Assembly (NCBI GenBank): GCA_012520405.1
Contig: JAAYOJ010000026.1
Span: 1 to 33,075, forward strand
Length of the DNA: 33,075 nucleotides
Direction of reading: 5' to 3'
Source of the DNA: Peptococcaceae bacterium
Lineage (GTDB): Bacteria; Bacillota; Desulfitobacteriia; Desulfitobacteriales; Syntrophobotulaceae
Of this stretch, positions 14,747-30,942 are shown in pieces (within the stretch, counting starts at the first letter, position 1; every line of letters begins with the position of its first letter). The notes under the pieces were generated by a model. It was not told where the DNA came from and did no database searches. It saw only the letters and a program-made list of their open reading frames with translations. The translations under genes and the position numbers were made by a program.

Positions 14747-14758
14747 AATATATAAACA

Positions 14759-14854
14759 GAAAGTAGGGAAAGTGTAAGAAAAGAAACAAAAAGAAAGTAG
14801 GGAAAGTGTAGAGAAAGAAACAAAAGGAAAGTAGAGAAAAAGAAAAACAAAAAG
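14759..14854. repeat. 34-nt tandem repeat in a purine-rich tract
   Basis: Unit 1 (14759-14792) and unit 2 (14793-14826) both begin GAAAGTAGGGAAAGTGTA and end in GAAACAAAA plus one base. A third, degenerate unit starts at 14827 with GAAAGTAGAG. The strand stays almost entirely purine to about 14930. Likely slippage-generated; effects on DNA structure or RNA are unknown. Confidence 0.7.
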
Positions 14855-15056
14855 AAAAACAAAAAAACAAAAAGTAGAAAGAAAGGAGAATAAAGAGAGT
14901 AGGGAATAAAGGTAGAAATAACAAAATAGAGAAATGAATCGAAGAATTAATTAGAAAATGAGTTGTTATGCTTAAGAAACTAAGCACAAGGTGCGAAATA
15001 TGTTCTGAAAGTTTAAGCAAGTGCACTGGGATGTATACCTTTGTCGTCCCTATCCG

Positions 15057-19853: not shown

Positions 19854-19929
19854 AAACTATATATAACCATATAAGAATTGTCATAGGGGTAGTTATTGAG
19901 GAAATTATAGTTGTTTGGGGCGAAAGATA

Positions 19930-22170
19930 ATGAATAATGGGGACTTGCTCAAAAACGGGAATCTCGGTCTAAGCCGGGAGCAAGCATTGGCTTTAGCCTC
20001 CCAAAAAGGCGAAAAGGTTATAGCTTCTATCTGTGCTATGTGTGGACCTACACCCCGGGGGTGTGGTATTTATGCCTTTGTTCAAGAAGGAAGGCTGACT
20101 AGAGTTGCCGGTATGCGGGAATGTCCGGTGAATCGAGGAGCGATTTGTGCCAAAGGCCAAGCTGCACCTCAGTGGGTTTATTCTCCTGACAGGTTGAAAT
20201 ATCCCTTGCGAAGAATTGGAGCCAAGGGCGAGGGGAAATTTAAGAGGATATCCTGGGAGGAAGCTGTCCATACCATTGCCGAGACCTTAAGGAGTCAAAA
20301 AGAACAATATGGTCCTGAGTCCTTAGCTATTTTGGCCCCGGCGATGAGAACCTATAATGCTTATTTAAAACGCTTTCTTACCGTTCATGGCAGTCCCAAC
20401 TATGGGCATAGCGGGATTTGTGCTCTGCAGAGAGCTTTTTCCTTTATGTACACTCTGGGCGATAAGCCCGAAGCCCAGATAGACCAAAGCGATCTTATTA
20501 TTTACTGGGCAAGGCAGCCTGTTTTTTCCGGACCGGCTATGCGGGCTCCTAAAGCTTTACTCCAGGCTAAAAGCAGAGGAGCTAAAATTATAGCTATTAA
20601 ACCATCGGTTGAACCCGATGTGGCGAAAGCAGATATCTGGGTTCCCATAAGACCCGGGACGGACGCTGCTTTGGCCTTGGCTATGCTTTATGTTGTTGTC
20701 ACGGAGAATTTAATAGATCATGAATTCGTCGCCAAATGGTGTTATGGTTATGAGCAATTGCAAGAACACATCCAAAAGTATTCTCCGCAATGGGCTCAAG
20801 AAATAACCGGTGTTCCTGCCGAACTGATCTGCCAAATAGCCCGTCTCTACGCTACAACCAGACGGGCTTGCATTGACTTAGGGAACGGAGTGGAACATGC
20901 TCCATCGGCCAATGACGCTATCCGGGCCATCGCTATTCTCATCGCTATAACCGGGCATCTGGATCGTCCAGGCGGGAATATTTTTAATGTCGCCAGCCCT
21001 GGCCAGCCTCAACCCAAAGACATTACCCTGCGGGAGCGTTTGACTCCGGAATTAGGTAAAAAGCTGCTTGGACCTGAGTTTCCACTGGAGTTTCAACCTT
21101 TTATTGAGGGCTATAATTCTGCTTATTACCGAGTTTTGGAGAGTGTGCTTACCGAATCTCCGTATGCCCCAAGAACCATAATTGCTCCGGGAACTCAGCC
21201 GGCAGTAAGTACCCGGGGTTCGTCAAAGGTTATTGAAGCCCTGAAAAAGCTTGATTTTTATGTTGTAATTGATGTTACCAGAACTGCTGATATGAACTAT
21301 GCCGATATTGTTCTTCCTGTTACCACTCCTTATGAATCAGACCATCCCTTTGAAGCCTTTGGCGGTCTGATTAGGGCGCGTCACAAAGTAATTGAACCTC
21401 TGGGAGATTATAAGTCCATTTACGAGTTTTTCCTGGAGCTGGCCGTAAAAATGGGATACGGCGCTGATTTCTGGAACGGGAGTATAAAACAATGTTTAGA
21501 TGATCAGCTACAGCCTTTAAATCTAACCTATGAGGAACTAAAAACATATGCTTTTGGTTTGAACTATGAGAAACCACTGCCCAGAACCTACGAGAATTAT
21601 AGCCAAGTCTTCGCCCGCAAAAGTCCAAGGCTTAATCAAGCACCCTATTTAGCTCACGGCAAGGTTGAAATATATAATACCTCCTTTAAAGAAGCGGGAT
21701 TTACTCCGCTGCCCGAATGGCGCGAACCGCCTGAAAGTTTAACCGGTACTCCTCATCTGGCTAAAGAGTATCCTCTTATCTTATCTGATTATCACACTTC
21801 CAAAAATTTTACAGCGTCTTGGCAGCGCAATATTCCTTACCTCAGGGAACTTCAGCCTTACCCCGTTATTCATATTCATCCTCAAACTGCAGCGTCCCGA
21901 GAAATTAAAGACGGGGACTGGGTTATAGTTAAGTCTCCTCATGGCTATATGAAAGTAAAAGCAGAACTCTATCCGGGAATTAGGCCGGATACAGTTATGA
22001 TTCTCCATGGTTGGTGGCAAGGGTGCCAGGAATTGGGACTGCCGGATTTCCCTCTGCTTCAAGGAGGGGCCAATGTGAACAATATGTACAGCGTGGATCC
22101 CCAGAAAGCTTATGATCCGCTAATTACGGCCATGAGTAGCCAAACTCTGGTGGAAGTAAAAAAACTTTAA
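19930..22170 (+). CDS. Molybdopterin (Mo/W-bisMGD) oxidoreductase
   Basis: This is a catalytic subunit of the DMSO reductase superfamily, 746 residues from the ATG at 19930 (a TTG at 19915 with a distant GAGGA is possible). The N-terminal cluster motif is C35-x2-C38-x6-C45-x27-C73; the x6 gap is longer than the usual x3. Cys164 in HSGICALQ lies where the metal ligand is expected. Molybdopterin-binding stretches include SDLIIYWARQP, VPIRPGTDAALALAM and MNYADIVLPVTT, with a C-terminal MGD-binding domain (HIHPQTAASREIKDGDWV). No Tat signal is present, so it is probably cytoplasmic. The ferredoxin gene follows. The substrate is unknown; acetylene hydratase-like, thiosulfate/polysulfide reductase-like or other roles are all possible. 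Confidence 0.88.
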   Translation: MNNGDLLKNGNLGLSREQALALASQKGEKVIASICAMCGPTPRGCGIYAFVQEGRLTRVAGMRECPVNRGAICAKGQAAPQWVYSPDRLKYPLRRIGAKGEGKFKRISWEEAVHTIAETLRSQKEQYGPESLAILAPAMRTYNAYLKRFLTVHGSPNYGHSGICALQRAFSFMYTLGDKPEAQIDQSDLIIYWARQPVFSGPAMRAPKALLQAKSRGAKIIAIKPSVEPDVAKADIWVPIRPGTDAALALAMLYVVVTENLIDHEFVAKWCYGYEQLQEHIQKYSPQWAQEITGVPAELICQIARLYATTRRACIDLGNGVEHAPSANDAIRAIAILIAITGHLDRPGGNIFNVASPGQPQPKDITLRERLTPELGKKLLGPEFPLEFQPFIEGYNSAYYRVLESVLTESPYAPRTIIAPGTQPAVSTRGSSKVIEALKKLDFYVVIDVTRTADMNYADIVLPVTTPYESDHPFEAFGGLIRARHKVIEPLGDYKSIYEFFLELAVKMGYGADFWNGSIKQCLDDQLQPLNLTYEELKTYAFGLNYEKPLPRTYENYSQVFARKSPRLNQAPYLAHGKVEIYNTSFKEAGFTPLPEWREPPESLTGTPHLAKEYPLILSDYHTSKNFTASWQRNIPYLRELQPYPVIHIHPQTAASREIKDGDWVIVKSPHGYMKVKAELYPGIRPDTVMILHGWWQGCQELGLPDFPLLQGGANVNNMYSVDPQKAYDPLITAMSSQTLVEVKKL

Positions 22171-22219: not shown

Positions 22220-22717
22220 ATGGCCGGACTTTGTATTTTATTTAAACCTGAAGCTTGCATCGGCTGCCATGGATGTGAGGTAGCATGTAAAAGCTGGCGC
22301 CAGGTGGAGTTGGGCCTTAAATGGAGAAAAGTAGATACCGGCTGGCAGGGAATTTATCCTGATGTTAAAAGCATTTTCAGTTCCACAGCCTGTAAGCATT
22401 GCGAAGAGCCGGAGTGTATGCTAGCCTGTCCAACAGAGGCAATTACAAAAGAAGAGTTAACCGGCGCAGTGGTAGTTAACCGAGATAACTGTATAGGTTG
22501 CCGGCTGTGCTTGCAGGCCTGTCCTTATGGAATTCCGCAATTCGGGTCGGATCAGAAAATGCAAAAATGCGACCTTTGCCATAATGATTTGGTTGGCTAT
22601 CAACAAGAAAAGGATAAATATTGTTATGTCCCCCCGTGTGTCGCTACTTGCCCCACGCATGCTTTGCGTTTAATTCCGGTCAACATGGACCATATCCTAC
22701 CATCCGGGGATGATTAG
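22220..22717 (+). CDS. Four-cluster ferredoxin subunit (NrfC/DmsB-like)
   Basis: This 165-residue electron-transfer protein has sixteen cysteines in four groups: C13/16/19/23, C58/61/66/70, C91/94/97/101 and C117/120/140/144. That is the arrangement of DmsB/NrfC/PsrB-type subunits, which carry four [4Fe-4S] clusters. It should pass electrons to or from the molybdopterin subunit 49 nt upstream. No membrane subunit of the NrfD/DmsC type follows, so the complex may be soluble and linked to ferredoxin or another carrier. The ribosome binding site before the ATG is poor. Confidence 0.9.
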   Translation: MAGLCILFKPEACIGCHGCEVACKSWRQVELGLKWRKVDTGWQGIYPDVKSIFSSTACKHCEEPECMLACPTEAITKEELTGAVVVNRDNCIGCRLCLQACPYGIPQFGSDQKMQKCDLCHNDLVGYQQEKDKYCYVPPCVATCPTHALRLIPVNMDHILPSGDD

Positions 22718-22760
22718 GCGCACCGGTATCGCTAATAATTTCTATGTTTTTGGAGGACTA

Positions 22761-24911
22761 ATGAATAACCATACTGCAAATGTATTGCGAATAACCGAAA
22801 GTGTATGTCCAAAATGCCTAAAAAAAATACCGGCGGAGCATGTGCTTGTTGACGGTAATGTTTACATGCATAAAACATGTGCAGACCATGGAAAATTTTC
22901 CACTATTATCTGGCGCGGCAGCGGGCAACTTGCTTATAGCTCCTGGAAAAAAGAAAAAGCATTCTCTCACCCCGAAATCTGTCTGACAGAGGTGGAAAAA
23001 GGCTGTCCTTATGATTGCGGTTTGTGTGCAGAACACAGACAGCAAACCTGTTGTGTGCTTTTGGAAGTAACCGAACGCTGTAATCTTAATTGCCACTACT
23101 GTTTTGCCAGCAGCGGTGAAAAGTATAATGATCCCTCATTGGAGCAAATAAAAGAGTGGCTGGAACTTCTGGCCGACCTTGGAAAACCCTTTATTCATTT
23201 ATCCGGCGGAGAACCCACAGTGCGTAATGATTTACCGGAAATTATCAGCCTAGCAAAACAAATGGGCTTTTCATATATTCAATTAAATACCAACGGAATT
23301 AAACTCGGGGAGGATCCGCAATATGGGCGTGAGCTTAAAGATGCCGGTCTATCCTCGGTTTTTATGCAGTTTGACGGCACTAAGGACGAGATCTATCAGC
23401 GGCTCAGAGGTCGCAATCTTTTAGCCGTTAAAGAAAAGGCTATCCGCAACTGCGGTGACAACCGATTGGGTGTTGTTTTGGTGCCGACAATTGTACCCGG
23501 AGTTAACGACGATAATATTGGCGAGATTGTAAGCTATGGCCTGTCTAGGATTCCCGACGTCAGAGGTATACATTTTCAGCCGGTGAGTTATTTTGGGAGG
23601 TATCCAGCAGCCCCTTTGGATGAGCAAAGAATTACCCTGCCGGAAATAATAAGAGGCATTGTCGAACAGACAAAGGGGATTTTTAAAGTAGAAGATTTTG
23701 CACCTTCGGGCTGTGATCATGCTCGTTGCGGTTTTCACGGCGATTTTATTTTGCTCTCGGACGGCAGTATTCAGGCTCTAACCCCTAATAGTGACCCTGA
23801 AAGCTGCTGTTGCCAACCGAATCTAACTCCGTCTTTTTCCACAGCGGTGAAAAAGAATAGGAATTTTGTTGCTCGTCGCTGGGTGAGAACAGACAGCGGT
23901 GTGGAATGTTGTGAAAAAAACAGACCATCCGATGATCTGGATTATTTTTTAAATCGTATTAAATCTCACGGCTTTTCCCTTACCGGGATGGCTTTTCAGG
24001 ATTGTTGGAACATAGATCTGGAGAGGCTTAAAGAGTGTAGCTTGCATGTCTTAAGTCCCGCAGGTAAGATAATTCCTTTTTGTGCCTACAACCTAAGCAG
24101 TACAGAAGGGCAGACCCTTTACCGACAGCTGGGACAGGCCGGTTCAACTGATTTAAGCAGTACTAAGCAATATGTAAAAAATAAAATTAAGCAAATTGCC
24201 GGCAAGCCCTCAGCGGCTGGAAATGTTCCTAAAACAGAAGGATGTCTGATTTGTGGACGTGAACTTGTTTATTTCACTGACCGTTCGGAATATACCTGCC
24301 TTATTTGCGGTAAGCAATTTACTGCTAATGTAAGCTGCAGTGCCGGTCATTATATTTGCGACCTATGTCACGGCGCAGATATATTTCAAAAATTAGAGAG
24401 TTTCCTAATGGCCAGTAAAGAAAAAAATCCCCTCCGGCTCATCTCACAGGTTTTTGAACTCCCCGGTTTGAATATGCATGGCCCGGAATATCATAGTATT
24501 GTACCTGCTGTGCTGGTAGCTGCTTATCAGAATTTAACAGGACAAAAGGACTGCAATAAAATTATAGAAAGCATTGCTCGGGGTACCTATATTAAAGGCG
24601 GCGGCTGTGGTTATTATGGAACATGCGGAGCCTGTGTCGGAACCGGAATTGCTCTATCGATATTGGAAGGAGTAACGCCAATGGGGGTTGAGAAGCGGGC
24701 TTCAGCCAACATGATCACCGGGCTTGCCCTGTTGGCTATTAGTAAGCATGGAGGACCTAGATGCTGTAAGAGAGAAGCTGTTACCTCGATTAAAACCTTT
24801 ATGAGCAATACCGAGTATTTTGCTAATGTGCCTGACATTGACTATCAATGCAGCCAATATAATCGGAACAAGGATTGCATCCATGAAAAATGCCCTTATT
24901 TTCCGCAATAA
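22761..24911 (+). CDS. Radical SAM protein fused to a DUF5714-like domain
   Basis: This protein has 716 residues from the ATG at 22761, where GGAGG lies 5 nt upstream; the frame is open to 22710 but overlaps the ferredoxin gene. The radical SAM motif is C107-x3-C111-x2-C114. Just before it is an additional CPYDCGLC motif (C82, C86, C89), as in the archaeal tetraether lipid synthase (Tes) and TrsS-like families. GCDHARCGFHGD is also typical of that group. From about residue 495 the protein changes to a cysteine-rich C-terminal domain (CLICGRELVYF, GCGYYGTCGACVGTG, GPRCCKRE, CIHEKCPYF) resembling DUF5714. The reaction is unknown; remote C-H chemistry or maturation of the neighbouring oxidoreductase are both conceivable. 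Confidence 0.8.
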   Translation: MNNHTANVLRITESVCPKCLKKIPAEHVLVDGNVYMHKTCADHGKFSTIIWRGSGQLAYSSWKKEKAFSHPEICLTEVEKGCPYDCGLCAEHRQQTCCVLLEVTERCNLNCHYCFASSGEKYNDPSLEQIKEWLELLADLGKPFIHLSGGEPTVRNDLPEIISLAKQMGFSYIQLNTNGIKLGEDPQYGRELKDAGLSSVFMQFDGTKDEIYQRLRGRNLLAVKEKAIRNCGDNRLGVVLVPTIVPGVNDDNIGEIVSYGLSRIPDVRGIHFQPVSYFGRYPAAPLDEQRITLPEIIRGIVEQTKGIFKVEDFAPSGCDHARCGFHGDFILLSDGSIQALTPNSDPESCCCQPNLTPSFSTAVKKNRNFVARRWVRTDSGVECCEKNRPSDDLDYFLNRIKSHGFSLTGMAFQDCWNIDLERLKECSLHVLSPAGKIIPFCAYNLSSTEGQTLYRQLGQAGSTDLSSTKQYVKNKIKQIAGKPSAAGNVPKTEGCLICGRELVYFTDRSEYTCLICGKQFTANVSCSAGHYICDLCHGADIFQKLESFLMASKEKNPLRLISQVFELPGLNMHGPEYHSIVPAVLVAAYQNLTGQKDCNKIIESIARGTYIKGGGCGYYGTCGACVGTGIALSILEGVTPMGVEKRASANMITGLALLAISKHGGPRCCKREAVTSIKTFMSNTEYFANVPDIDYQCSQYNRNKDCIHEKCPYFPQ

Positions 24912-24964
24912 ATAATTTTTATAGTATCATAATATTGGAGAATAATTATAAAGGAGGGATGGAA

Positions 24965-25486
24965 ATGGCATTTATTGAAATAGCAAGGAAAAGATATTCT
25001 GTTAGAAAGTATAAAGATCTGGATATTGAAAAAGAAAAAATTCTCCAAATATTAGAGGCGGCAAGAATTGCACCTTCTGCTGTTAATTATCAACCCTGGC
25101 ATTTTATCGTGCTAACGGAGAAAAAGTTGATAGAACAGATTGCGGAGGTCTATCCGGCAAAATGGCTTGCCAAGGCACCGGTAATTATTGTTGCTTGCGG
25201 TGATCATTCCAAGTCTTGGAAGAGAAAAGACGGCAAAGACCATTGTGATATCGATCTGGCCATCGCTATTGACCATATCACACTTGCTGCAGCGGATCTA
25301 GGTATTGGCAGTTGTTGGGTATGTGCTTTTGAGGCAGCTAAATGTCATGAAATTCTAAGTTTGCCGGAACATTTGGAGCCGGTAGCCTTGCTTCCTATGG
25401 GCTATCCGCTGGAGGAAACCCCACCGGCAAAGAATCGGAAAAATATTGACGAGATTGTTAGTTGGGAAGGTTACTCCCAAAATTAG
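24965..25486 (+). CDS. Nitroreductase family protein
   Basis: This 174-residue FMN-dependent oxidoreductase has the family start RKRYSVRKYKD (FMN phosphate contacts), ARIAPSAVNYQPWHFIV, and the C-terminal LLPMGYP. The start is the ATG at 24965, 7 nt after AAGGAGGG; an ATG two codons earlier is too close. It lies 53 nt after the radical SAM gene on the same strand and may belong to that operon. Proteins of this size act on quinones, nitro compounds, flavins or unsaturated carbonyls; the substrate here is unknown. Confidence 0.88.
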   Translation: MAFIEIARKRYSVRKYKDLDIEKEKILQILEAARIAPSAVNYQPWHFIVLTEKKLIEQIAEVYPAKWLAKAPVIIVACGDHSKSWKRKDGKDHCDIDLAIAIDHITLAAADLGIGSCWVCAFEAAKCHEILSLPEHLEPVALLPMGYPLEETPPAKNRKNIDEIVSWEGYSQN

Positions 25487-29856: not shown

Positions 29857-30942
29857 ATGGCCAGCGACAATACAGCTAATAAAGTCCAAACTGAAAGGGC
29901 CAGAATTAAAGACGAATGCAGCCAATGCGGCTTGTGTTCCAACGGGTGCGCATTTTTAGCAGAATACACTTCTCCTGCTGAGATGGCCGCCAGAGGAATT
30001 AGCAAGGAGGATGCTTACTCCTGTTCGTTATGTGCCAAATGCCAAGCCCTATGTCCGCTCGGTTTAAATCCCATGGGCATGTTTCAGGAAAGAAGAGTAG
30101 AAACTATGCAAAAGCAGGAGCTCGAGCCGGAAGAGTTTAATTATTTTATGCCGGATTGTGAAGATAATGTTATGAATTATTACCGTCAATACTATGGCAT
30201 TGACTACAGTAATTTAGAAAGTGATAAAGGTTCAACTAGCTACTTTTTCCCGGGTTGTACCTTAATGACTTATTCTCCGGCCATAACTAGAGAGATTTAT
30301 AACCGTCTACGCCTTAAGCAGGGTTGTGGCGGAATATTAACCGATTGTTGCGGGCTGCCCTTATATCAAATGGGTTTAAACGATAGGGCGGGTAAATTTA
30401 CAAATTCTCTGGTTGAAAAAATTACCGATAGGGGAATCAAAAGCCTAATTGCTGCTTGCCCCAATTGCTATTATGAGCTCAAAGCCAGGCTTCAGCCTTT
30501 GGGTGTTAAGATACTTACTGTGTATGAGGCTTTAGATTTTTCTTTAGGTTCGCAAACTGATTTGCCTCCCTGCACAGTCCACGATTCCTGCCCTGATAGA
30601 ATGGAAGGGAAGTTTGCTCGTCAGACCCGCAACGCTCTTCAGAATAGGGGTTATAAAATAGTAGAAATGTCTAATATTCTTCAGCATTCTCCTTGTTGTG
30701 GCAGCGGCGGCCAGCTTTCTCATTTTCGGCCGGATTTGGCGGATAAACTGGTAAGGGACAGATTGACGGAAGCTGAGAACAGTGGGGCGCAAATTCTAGC
30801 GAGTTATTGTATGAGTTGTGTGTTGAATTTCGCTCGTCTTGAATCAGGACTTAAAGTAAGGCATGTCCTGAACCTTCTTCTCGGGATAGACGAGGATTAT
30901 ACCGAGGTCAAAAAACGGGCAGCCGAAATTTTTGTTTCCTGA
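29857..30942 (+). CDS. Two-cluster CCG-domain protein (HdrD/GlpC-like)
   Basis: This 361-residue redox protein has two [4Fe-4S] motifs, C21/24/27/31 and C56/59/62/66, then two cysteine-rich CCG domains: FFPGCTL...CCGLP and HDSCPD...SPCCGSGGQ. This is the layout of heterodisulfide reductase subunit D and GlpC-like proteins. No flavoprotein or membrane partner lies next to it, so its electron donor and acceptor are unknown. GGAGG lies about 11 nt before the ATG. The gap to the previous gene is 135 nt with no clear terminator. Confidence 0.9.
   Translation: MASDNTANKVQTERARIKDECSQCGLCSNGCAFLAEYTSPAEMAARGISKEDAYSCSLCAKCQALCPLGLNPMGMFQERRVETMQKQELEPEEFNYFMPDCEDNVMNYYRQYYGIDYSNLESDKGSTSYFFPGCTLMTYSPAITREIYNRLRLKQGCGGILTDCCGLPLYQMGLNDRAGKFTNSLVEKITDRGIKSLIAACPNCYYELKARLQPLGVKILTVYEALDFSLGSQTDLPPCTVHDSCPDRMEGKFARQTRNALQNRGYKIVEMSNILQHSPCCGSGGQLSHFRPDLADKLVRDRLTEAENSGAQILASYCMSCVLNFARLESGLKVRHVLNLLLGIDEDYTEVKKRAAEIFVS

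Follow-up and report, generated by a model that had tools for sequence, protein, structure and literature searches.

GDGT-MAS (Tes), the tetraether lipid synthase of archaea, couples the phytanyl chains of archaeal lipids. It carries a rubredoxin-like site (C9X2C12X20C33X2H36), an N-terminal cluster held by C73/C77/C80 and a histidine, and a C-terminal cluster at which Met439 is the labile residue and on whose sulfur a substrate carbon is held; the M439A variant retains activity (PMC9433317). The authors of its structure pointed to bacterial homologues in organisms not known for such lipids, the reactions of which are wanted (PMC9433317). TrsS, one bacterial branch related to GDGT-MAS, is defined by the profile NF045646 and was named in Haft and Tolstoy 2025, as cited in PMC13188914. 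The island in which TrsS usually lies encodes a molybdenum aldehyde oxidoreductase (AOR, NF045668), a pyridine-nucleotide oxidoreductase/dicluster (PNDR) protein and the DVU_1556 methyltransferase, together with the DVU_1555 C-GCAxxG-C-C protein, the DVU_1553 CoA ligase, an XdhC factor and the DVU_1551 NTP transferase.

Here we describe a TrsS enzyme joined to a DUF5714 tail, encoded in a stretch of 33,075 nucleotides that was analysed as a whole (the window). We propose that the fusion is probably the TrsS of its genome, a Tes-like AOR accessory enzyme that would act in trans from outside the island with DUF5714 as a metal or thiol helper. The single parts of the fusion are known as profiles; in the literature searched, the fusion arrangement, the in-trans relation to AOR and the sharing of the tail are undescribed, and part of this may be in the primary TrsS/MbdU paper.

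A single reading frame encodes the fusion

The gene and its start are as follows.
22761..24911, plus strand: TrsS-DUF5714 fusion protein of 716 amino acids, a stop-free open reading frame matching NF045646 (630 bits) and PF18978 (175 bits)
22752..22756, plus strand: GGAGG ribosome-binding site, read from the sequence, supporting the ATG at 22761

A start at the alternative in-frame ATG, at 22710, would make the gene overlap its upstream neighbour. Since the same single fusion frame is present in six other assemblies (L008, L009, L010, L012, L014 and L194), the fusion is no assembly artefact; one carrier is a complete chromosome, NZ_CP017634.1, and another a single-contig genome, G454. The gene has no in-frame TGA, hence no selenocysteine (Sec) codon. 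The two cysteine clusters that the original prediction had read from the translation, C82/C86/C89 and C107/C111/C114, lie exactly where it placed them, and its count of at least a dozen cysteines in the last 220 or so residues is exceeded, with 16 in residues 490-716, where 2.4 would be expected from the window background of 1.07% (binomial P = 5e-9). A Pfam scan of the protein returned an HMPTM-type zinc ribbon (residues 9-52), a radical SAM domain (102-257) and DUF5714 (546-714), and found no match to a SPASM-type C-terminal cluster domain; SPASM-type maturase models reach only the radical SAM core.

The TrsS part keeps the metal-site motifs of GDGT-MAS

The TrsS part comprises a rubredoxin-like part, an N-auxiliary part, the radical SAM core and a C-auxiliary part, with the following features.
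22794..24125, plus strand: TrsS region, residues 12-455 (NF045646 match; 7tol fold match)
22806..22889, plus strand: C16-x2-C19-x20-C40-x2-H43, predicted rubredoxin-like iron site (GDGT-MAS spacing; conserved in 40/40)
23004..23036, plus strand: C82/C86/C89/H92, predicted N-terminal auxiliary [4Fe-4S] site (GDGT-MAS match; conserved in 40/40)
23079..23102, plus strand: C107-x3-C111-x2-C114, radical SAM [4Fe-4S] site (PF04055, 97.6 bits; conserved in 40/40)
23727..24083, plus strand: C323, C426 and C441 with M410, predicted C-terminal auxiliary [4Fe-4S] site (alignment of M410; conservation)

The 'Tes/TrsS-like' label given earlier to this part holds: NF045646 is matched at 630.5 bits against a cut-off of 490 (residues 12-455 on model positions 3-441 of 441), and the best fold match of the full-length AlphaFold model is GDGT-MAS, structure 7tol (E 1.4e-38, TM 0.76 on the target). 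GDGT-MAS (7tol/7tom) is the only close solved relative of the TrsS part. All site residues of the GDGT-MAS type, together with C323, C426 and C441, are invariant in 40 of 40 TrsS sequences, M410 being kept in 39. From their position, C323, C426 and C441 are putative ligands of the C-terminal cluster; this set with M410, like the rubredoxin-like site, goes beyond what the original prediction had listed. Because GDGT-MAS M439A is still active, a methionine of the M410 type need not be essential. A further pair, C349/C351, is specific to TrsS (conserved in 39/40).

The tail is a conserved cysteine-rich domain of the DUF5714 family

The tail consists of two parts.
24243..24371, plus strand: zinc-ribbon-like part with C495, C498, C513, C516, C526, H530, C533, C536 and H537, conserved in 39-40 of 42
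24396..24902, plus strand: DUF5714 helical core, residues 546-714 (PF18978; AlphaFold model)

Residues 546-714 match PF18978 at 175 bits, far above its gathering score of 26.2, which turns the earlier 'DUF5714-like' into a firm assignment. In a conservation set of 42 DUF5714 sequences drawn from many genomes, seven cysteines of the core (C616, C622, C668, C669, C697, C706 and C711) are invariant, H573 and H578, the other core residues of metal type, are nearly so, and most of the 16 tail cysteines are kept in at least 39. The zinc-ribbon-like part was matched by Zn_ribbon_6 or Prok-RING_4 in 10-12 of 38 relatives, always weakly. A further cluster bound by the tail, as suggested at the outset, fits this invariant set of cysteines and histidines. 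Nothing directly supports the companion suggestion of a methyl or sulfur source, and the tail is absent from most TrsS proteins.

Structure prediction and profile searches, proposed earlier for the C-terminus, thus lead to a known Pfam family without a relative in the PDB: the AlphaFold model of the tail is confident (pLDDT 91.7, pTM 0.88), a Foldseek search of it against the PDB found no relative (best E 1.3), and a sequence-profile search against the PDB gave zinc-finger-type noise only. In the literature searched we found no mention of 'DUF5714'. PF09719 (C-GCAxxG-C-C) reaches the fusion at 17.4 bits, under its gathering score of 27, and C_GCAxxG_C_C is matched weakly by 9 of 38 DUF5714 relatives (best E 6e-5). 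Despite these weak matches, kinship between the two families is not established, because hhalign of DUF5714 with the DVU_1555 C-GCAxxG-C-C proteins gives a probability of 0.2%.

Two selenoprotein candidates were rejected. A Sec at the position of the C668-C669 pair had been prompted by the 'CU' motif given for MbdU in a review, but the Sec residues of the true MbdU genes (L182-L184) fall in the linker and a further domain, outside the DUF5714 core. The other was a DUF5714 match in genome G060 with two TGA codons (L181:8230-8726); these stand at G and R positions, and the gene has a frameshift and looks damaged.

DUF5714 accompanies two kinds of radical SAM enzyme

Outside the fusions, a separate DUF5714 gene lies directly before TrsS in L022 (overlapping by 4 bases) and, at a short distance, in L099 and L100, and shares a cluster with TrsS in L101, while in L019 DUF5714 is fused to a DVU_1551-type NTP transferase adjoining TrsS. 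In L025, L032, L114, L118 and L192 it either forms part of a radical SAM/SPASM enzyme or lies between the genes of such a cluster, together with a methyltransferase and a thioredoxin-thioredoxin reductase. Other contexts are the MbdU selenoproteins, and often DUF5714 stands alone. The tail is thus common to the TrsS fusion and a radical SAM/SPASM family unrelated to it. Genomes with TrsS are enriched in DUF5714 (10/24, compared with 51/399 overall; P 2.4e-4), but of the 51 genomes that have DUF5714, 41 lack a TrsS over the cut-off, for which reason we regard it as a general partner.

Two of these neighbourhoods deserve separate mention. A methyltransferase/radical SAM/SPASM/DUF5714/thioredoxin-thioredoxin reductase fusion cluster recurs at L025:5406-10030, L114:7145-11460, L118:10268-13808 and L192:5294-9486; its radical SAM/SPASM enzyme resembles RiPP maturases, and its DUF5714 is either fused or separate. 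At L101:1717-4285, genome G357 has tandem TrsS-type genes (436 and 422 amino acids) with a CoA ligase and DUF5714; no full-length AOR match was found in that genome.

The fusion is rare and probably of single origin

The early impression that the fusion looks unusual is supported by its frequency: it occurs in one of the 24 TrsS-bearing genomes of a 399-genome phylum sample, that of the window, and in seven genomes over all searches (the window, L008, L009, L010 from Desulfosporosinus BRH_c37, L012 from the complete Candidatus Formimonas warabiya, L014 and L194). Nor is the C-terminus a common, characterised tail of its radical SAM family, as DUF5714 is uncharacterised and uncommon on TrsS. 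In trees, the fusions group by their TrsS parts into one clade (98/86) that includes the tail-less L011 and L031; the position of both inside this clade suggests that they lost the tail. The fusion tails likewise form one clade (99/96), nested among radical SAM/SPASM tails. The simplest reading of these trees is one fusion event with the tail taken from the SPASM lineage; because support is lower at the nodes that immediately enclose the tail clade (92/78 and 89/60), a SPASM donor is probable rather than certain.

The AOR island of this genome has no TrsS of its own

Among the 399 genomes, TrsS over the cut-off occurs in 24, AOR in 28 and both in 23 (Fisher P 1.7e-31), and TrsS lies within about 10 kb at 24 of 32 AOR places. 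An AOR island of the kind usual for TrsS was not found in the window around the fusion. The genome has its island on contig C190 (4776-16089), complete but for TrsS, with AOR, PNDR/dicluster, NTP transferase, XdhC, DVU_1556 methyltransferase, C-GCAxxG-C-C protein and CoA ligase genes, and the near relative G399 (L172) has an AOR island likewise without TrsS. The fusion is the only TrsS over the cut-off in six of the seven fusion genomes (G000, G399, G400, G401, G402 and G403). Formimonas (G402, complete) has six AORs over the cut-off and one TrsS, the fusion, which is beside none of them. In Desulfosporosinus BRH_c37 (G401), the TrsS slots of two AOR islands hold remnants:
L169:12046-12132 and L170:9841-10178: TrsS remnants in island slots

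In L014 the fusion gene still adjoins AOR and PNDR. We infer from this distribution that the fusion supplies the TrsS function of AOR islands in trans, an arrangement that allowed the loss of local TrsS copies. The assembly is a MAG of 95.8% completeness in which C189 and C190 are unconnected contigs, and it may therefore lack a further TrsS; the genome of L008 and the complete G402 agree with the absence of a second one. The exception is G454, where the fusion is accompanied by an ordinary TrsS in an island; the fusion may therefore have a separate function.

Apart from these cases, Clostridium ragsdalei has a TrsS remnant in an AOR island (L176:6776-6880) and two intact TrsS genes elsewhere. 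The window itself encodes, 5 kb downstream of the fusion (29857-30942), a 361-residue iron-sulfur protein that resembles only the C-terminal half of the PNDR/dicluster protein NF045663 (148 bits against a cut-off of 530).

Neighbouring genes and competing explanations

Three genes adjoin the fusion in the window.
19915..22170, plus strand: PhsA/DmsA-like molybdopterin oxidoreductase (PF00384, 152.6 bits; PhsA NCBIfam 336, cut-off 694)
22220..22717, plus strand: DmsB-like iron-sulfur protein, 43 bases before the fusion (PF13247; TIGR02951, 119 bits, cut-off 214)
24890..25486, plus strand: nitroreductase-family protein, just downstream (PF00881, 108 bits); the coordinates are those of the listed open reading frame, and the gene probably starts only after the stop codon of the fusion

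That the fusion in this genus lies directly behind a PhsA/DmsB-type operon, which belongs to a different class of molybdenum enzyme, was counted against a role in AOR. The fusion could have left the AOR system and been recruited to this operon, as the TrsS/Tes-like paralog on contig C49 seems to have been. The place of the fusion immediately behind the PhsA-like and DmsB-like genes (43-base gap), shared by L008 and L009, speaks for recruitment, as does the paralog's place in a conserved PhsA-DmsB-NrfD-(rSAM)-PhsA cassette in the same genome and in G125, G347 and G399, partly also in G083 and G042. However, no PhsA/DmsB genes adjoin the fusions of L010, L012, L014 and L194, and that of L014 has AOR and PNDR as neighbours; in the tree, the fusions belong to true TrsS, while the cassette paralog has a separate clade; and had the fusion been recruited, the AOR island would have no TrsS at all. 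We consider recruitment unlikely, and regard the PhsA/DmsA-like gene as a neighbour in this genus that does not belong to the fusion.

Competing views of the tail differ in plausibility. Least probable, and largely refuted, is that DUF5714, fused to TrsS, replaces the separate C-GCAxxG-C-C protein (DVU_1555 family) of the island: L014, L099, L101 and L022 have DUF5714 without a nearby C-GCAxxG-C-C gene, and the weak PF09719 matches bring a similar motif, CGYYGTCGACVGTG, but both proteins are present in the genome of the window (L146:13866-14318), in L019 and, at a distance, in L100, and profile-profile comparison finds no relationship. Only slightly less improbable is a passive accretion of the domain with no gain of function, with which the absence of the tail from most TrsS and from two members of the fusion clade (L011 and L031) would agree, but not the conservation of all its metal-type residues in the fusions or the repeated joining or neighbourhood of DUF5714 with two radical SAM families. 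A thiol-disulfide redox partner, in which conserved cysteines, chiefly C668-C669, would supply the radical SAM part or its methyltransferase partner with electrons as thioredoxin does, is a variant of the preferred explanation that differs in tail chemistry; it is possible, if rather doubtful. The C668-C669 pair is kept in 42 of 42 DUF5714 sequences, in the SPASM clusters DUF5714 lies with a methyltransferase and a thioredoxin-thioredoxin reductase fusion, and the family weakly matched by 9 of 38 relatives is annotated 'putative redox-active'. Against these points, Sec in MbdU lies in the linker and another domain and not at the CC pair, no thioredoxin-thioredoxin reductase gene was found in the TrsS islands, and hhalign set DUF5714 apart from the islands' C-GCAxxG-C-C protein.

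Separately, the TrsS/Tes-like paralog on contig C49 (L038:3114-10431, 448 amino acids, under the TrsS cut-off, in a clade of its own) constitutes a second link between a Tes-like enzyme and a molybdenum oxidoreductase, here of the DMSO reductase family; its cassette occurs also at L197, L198 and L201, partly at L199 and L200. Elsewhere in the window, about 175 bases (14757-14932) upstream of a sugar ABC permease gene are nearly pure purine and partly repeated (AAGAAAGTAGGGAAAGTGTA); an Rfam search of the window gave no match.

Proposed role of the fusion

As the AOR accessory enzyme that we favour, the TrsS part would use its CX3CX2C cluster to cleave SAM reductively to a 5'-deoxyadenosyl radical, which would abstract hydrogen from the substrate, whereupon the substrate carbon would be held on a sulfur of the C-terminal [4Fe-4S] cluster. 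By homology to GDGT-MAS we lean towards such a radical mechanism. What the reaction yields would probably be a small molecule or part of a cofactor and would be needed for AOR maturation or action, and the co-occurrence of the two proteins makes such a need likely. The tail would help the radical SAM enzyme through hand-over of metal, sulfide or electrons or through partner docking and would not do the radical step itself. Its probable descent from SPASM tails and the DUF5714 genes beside both enzyme types point to an accessory metal- or thiol-bearing partner; an accessory role is very likely, and the chances that the tail bears a metal or cluster are about even. A bolder possibility, which we hold only tentatively, is that TrsS makes a novel AOR cofactor or small-molecule modification by Tes-type carbon capture, with DUF5714 a metal-binding partner of new fold passed between two radical SAM families.

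These results link TrsS to one molybdenum enzyme through a co-occurrence that is nearly obligate, and a clean genetic test is open in those genomes whose single TrsS lies outside the AOR island. The fusion also draws attention to DUF5714, a family with no relative in the PDB, as a partner of radical SAM enzymes.

Comparison with known systems

With GDGT-MAS/Tes the fusion shares the fold (TM 0.76) and all four metal-site motifs in identical layout, Met439 corresponding to M410. It differs in scoring only 361.9 bits on NF045702, under the Tes cut-off of 450, in its diverged middle and C-terminal TrsS part with the TrsS-specific C349/C351, in being bacterial and linked to molybdenum AOR and not to lipid genes, and in its added tail. 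Compared with TrsS, it covers the whole 441-position model with all metal-type residues conserved, but has an extra linker, zinc-ribbon-like part and DUF5714 tail (260 residues), and its gene, without a Sec codon, lies away from the AOR island. MbdU (NF045648) has the zinc-ribbon-like part and DUF5714 in common with the fusion (residues 477-715), which nevertheless scores 127.6 bits, far under the cut-off of 600; MbdU has two Sec and another C-terminal domain, and its MLGCENAW and GPCCCK correspond to MHGPEYHS and GPRCCK of the fusion. The radical SAM/SPASM-DUF5714 proteins (L025, L026, L027, L032, L035-L037 and L192) likewise have DUF5714 at the C-terminus, and their tails are the nearest relatives of that of the fusion, whereas their N-terminal part is SPASM peptide-maturase-like and they come with methyltransferase and thioredoxin-thioredoxin reductase genes of their own.
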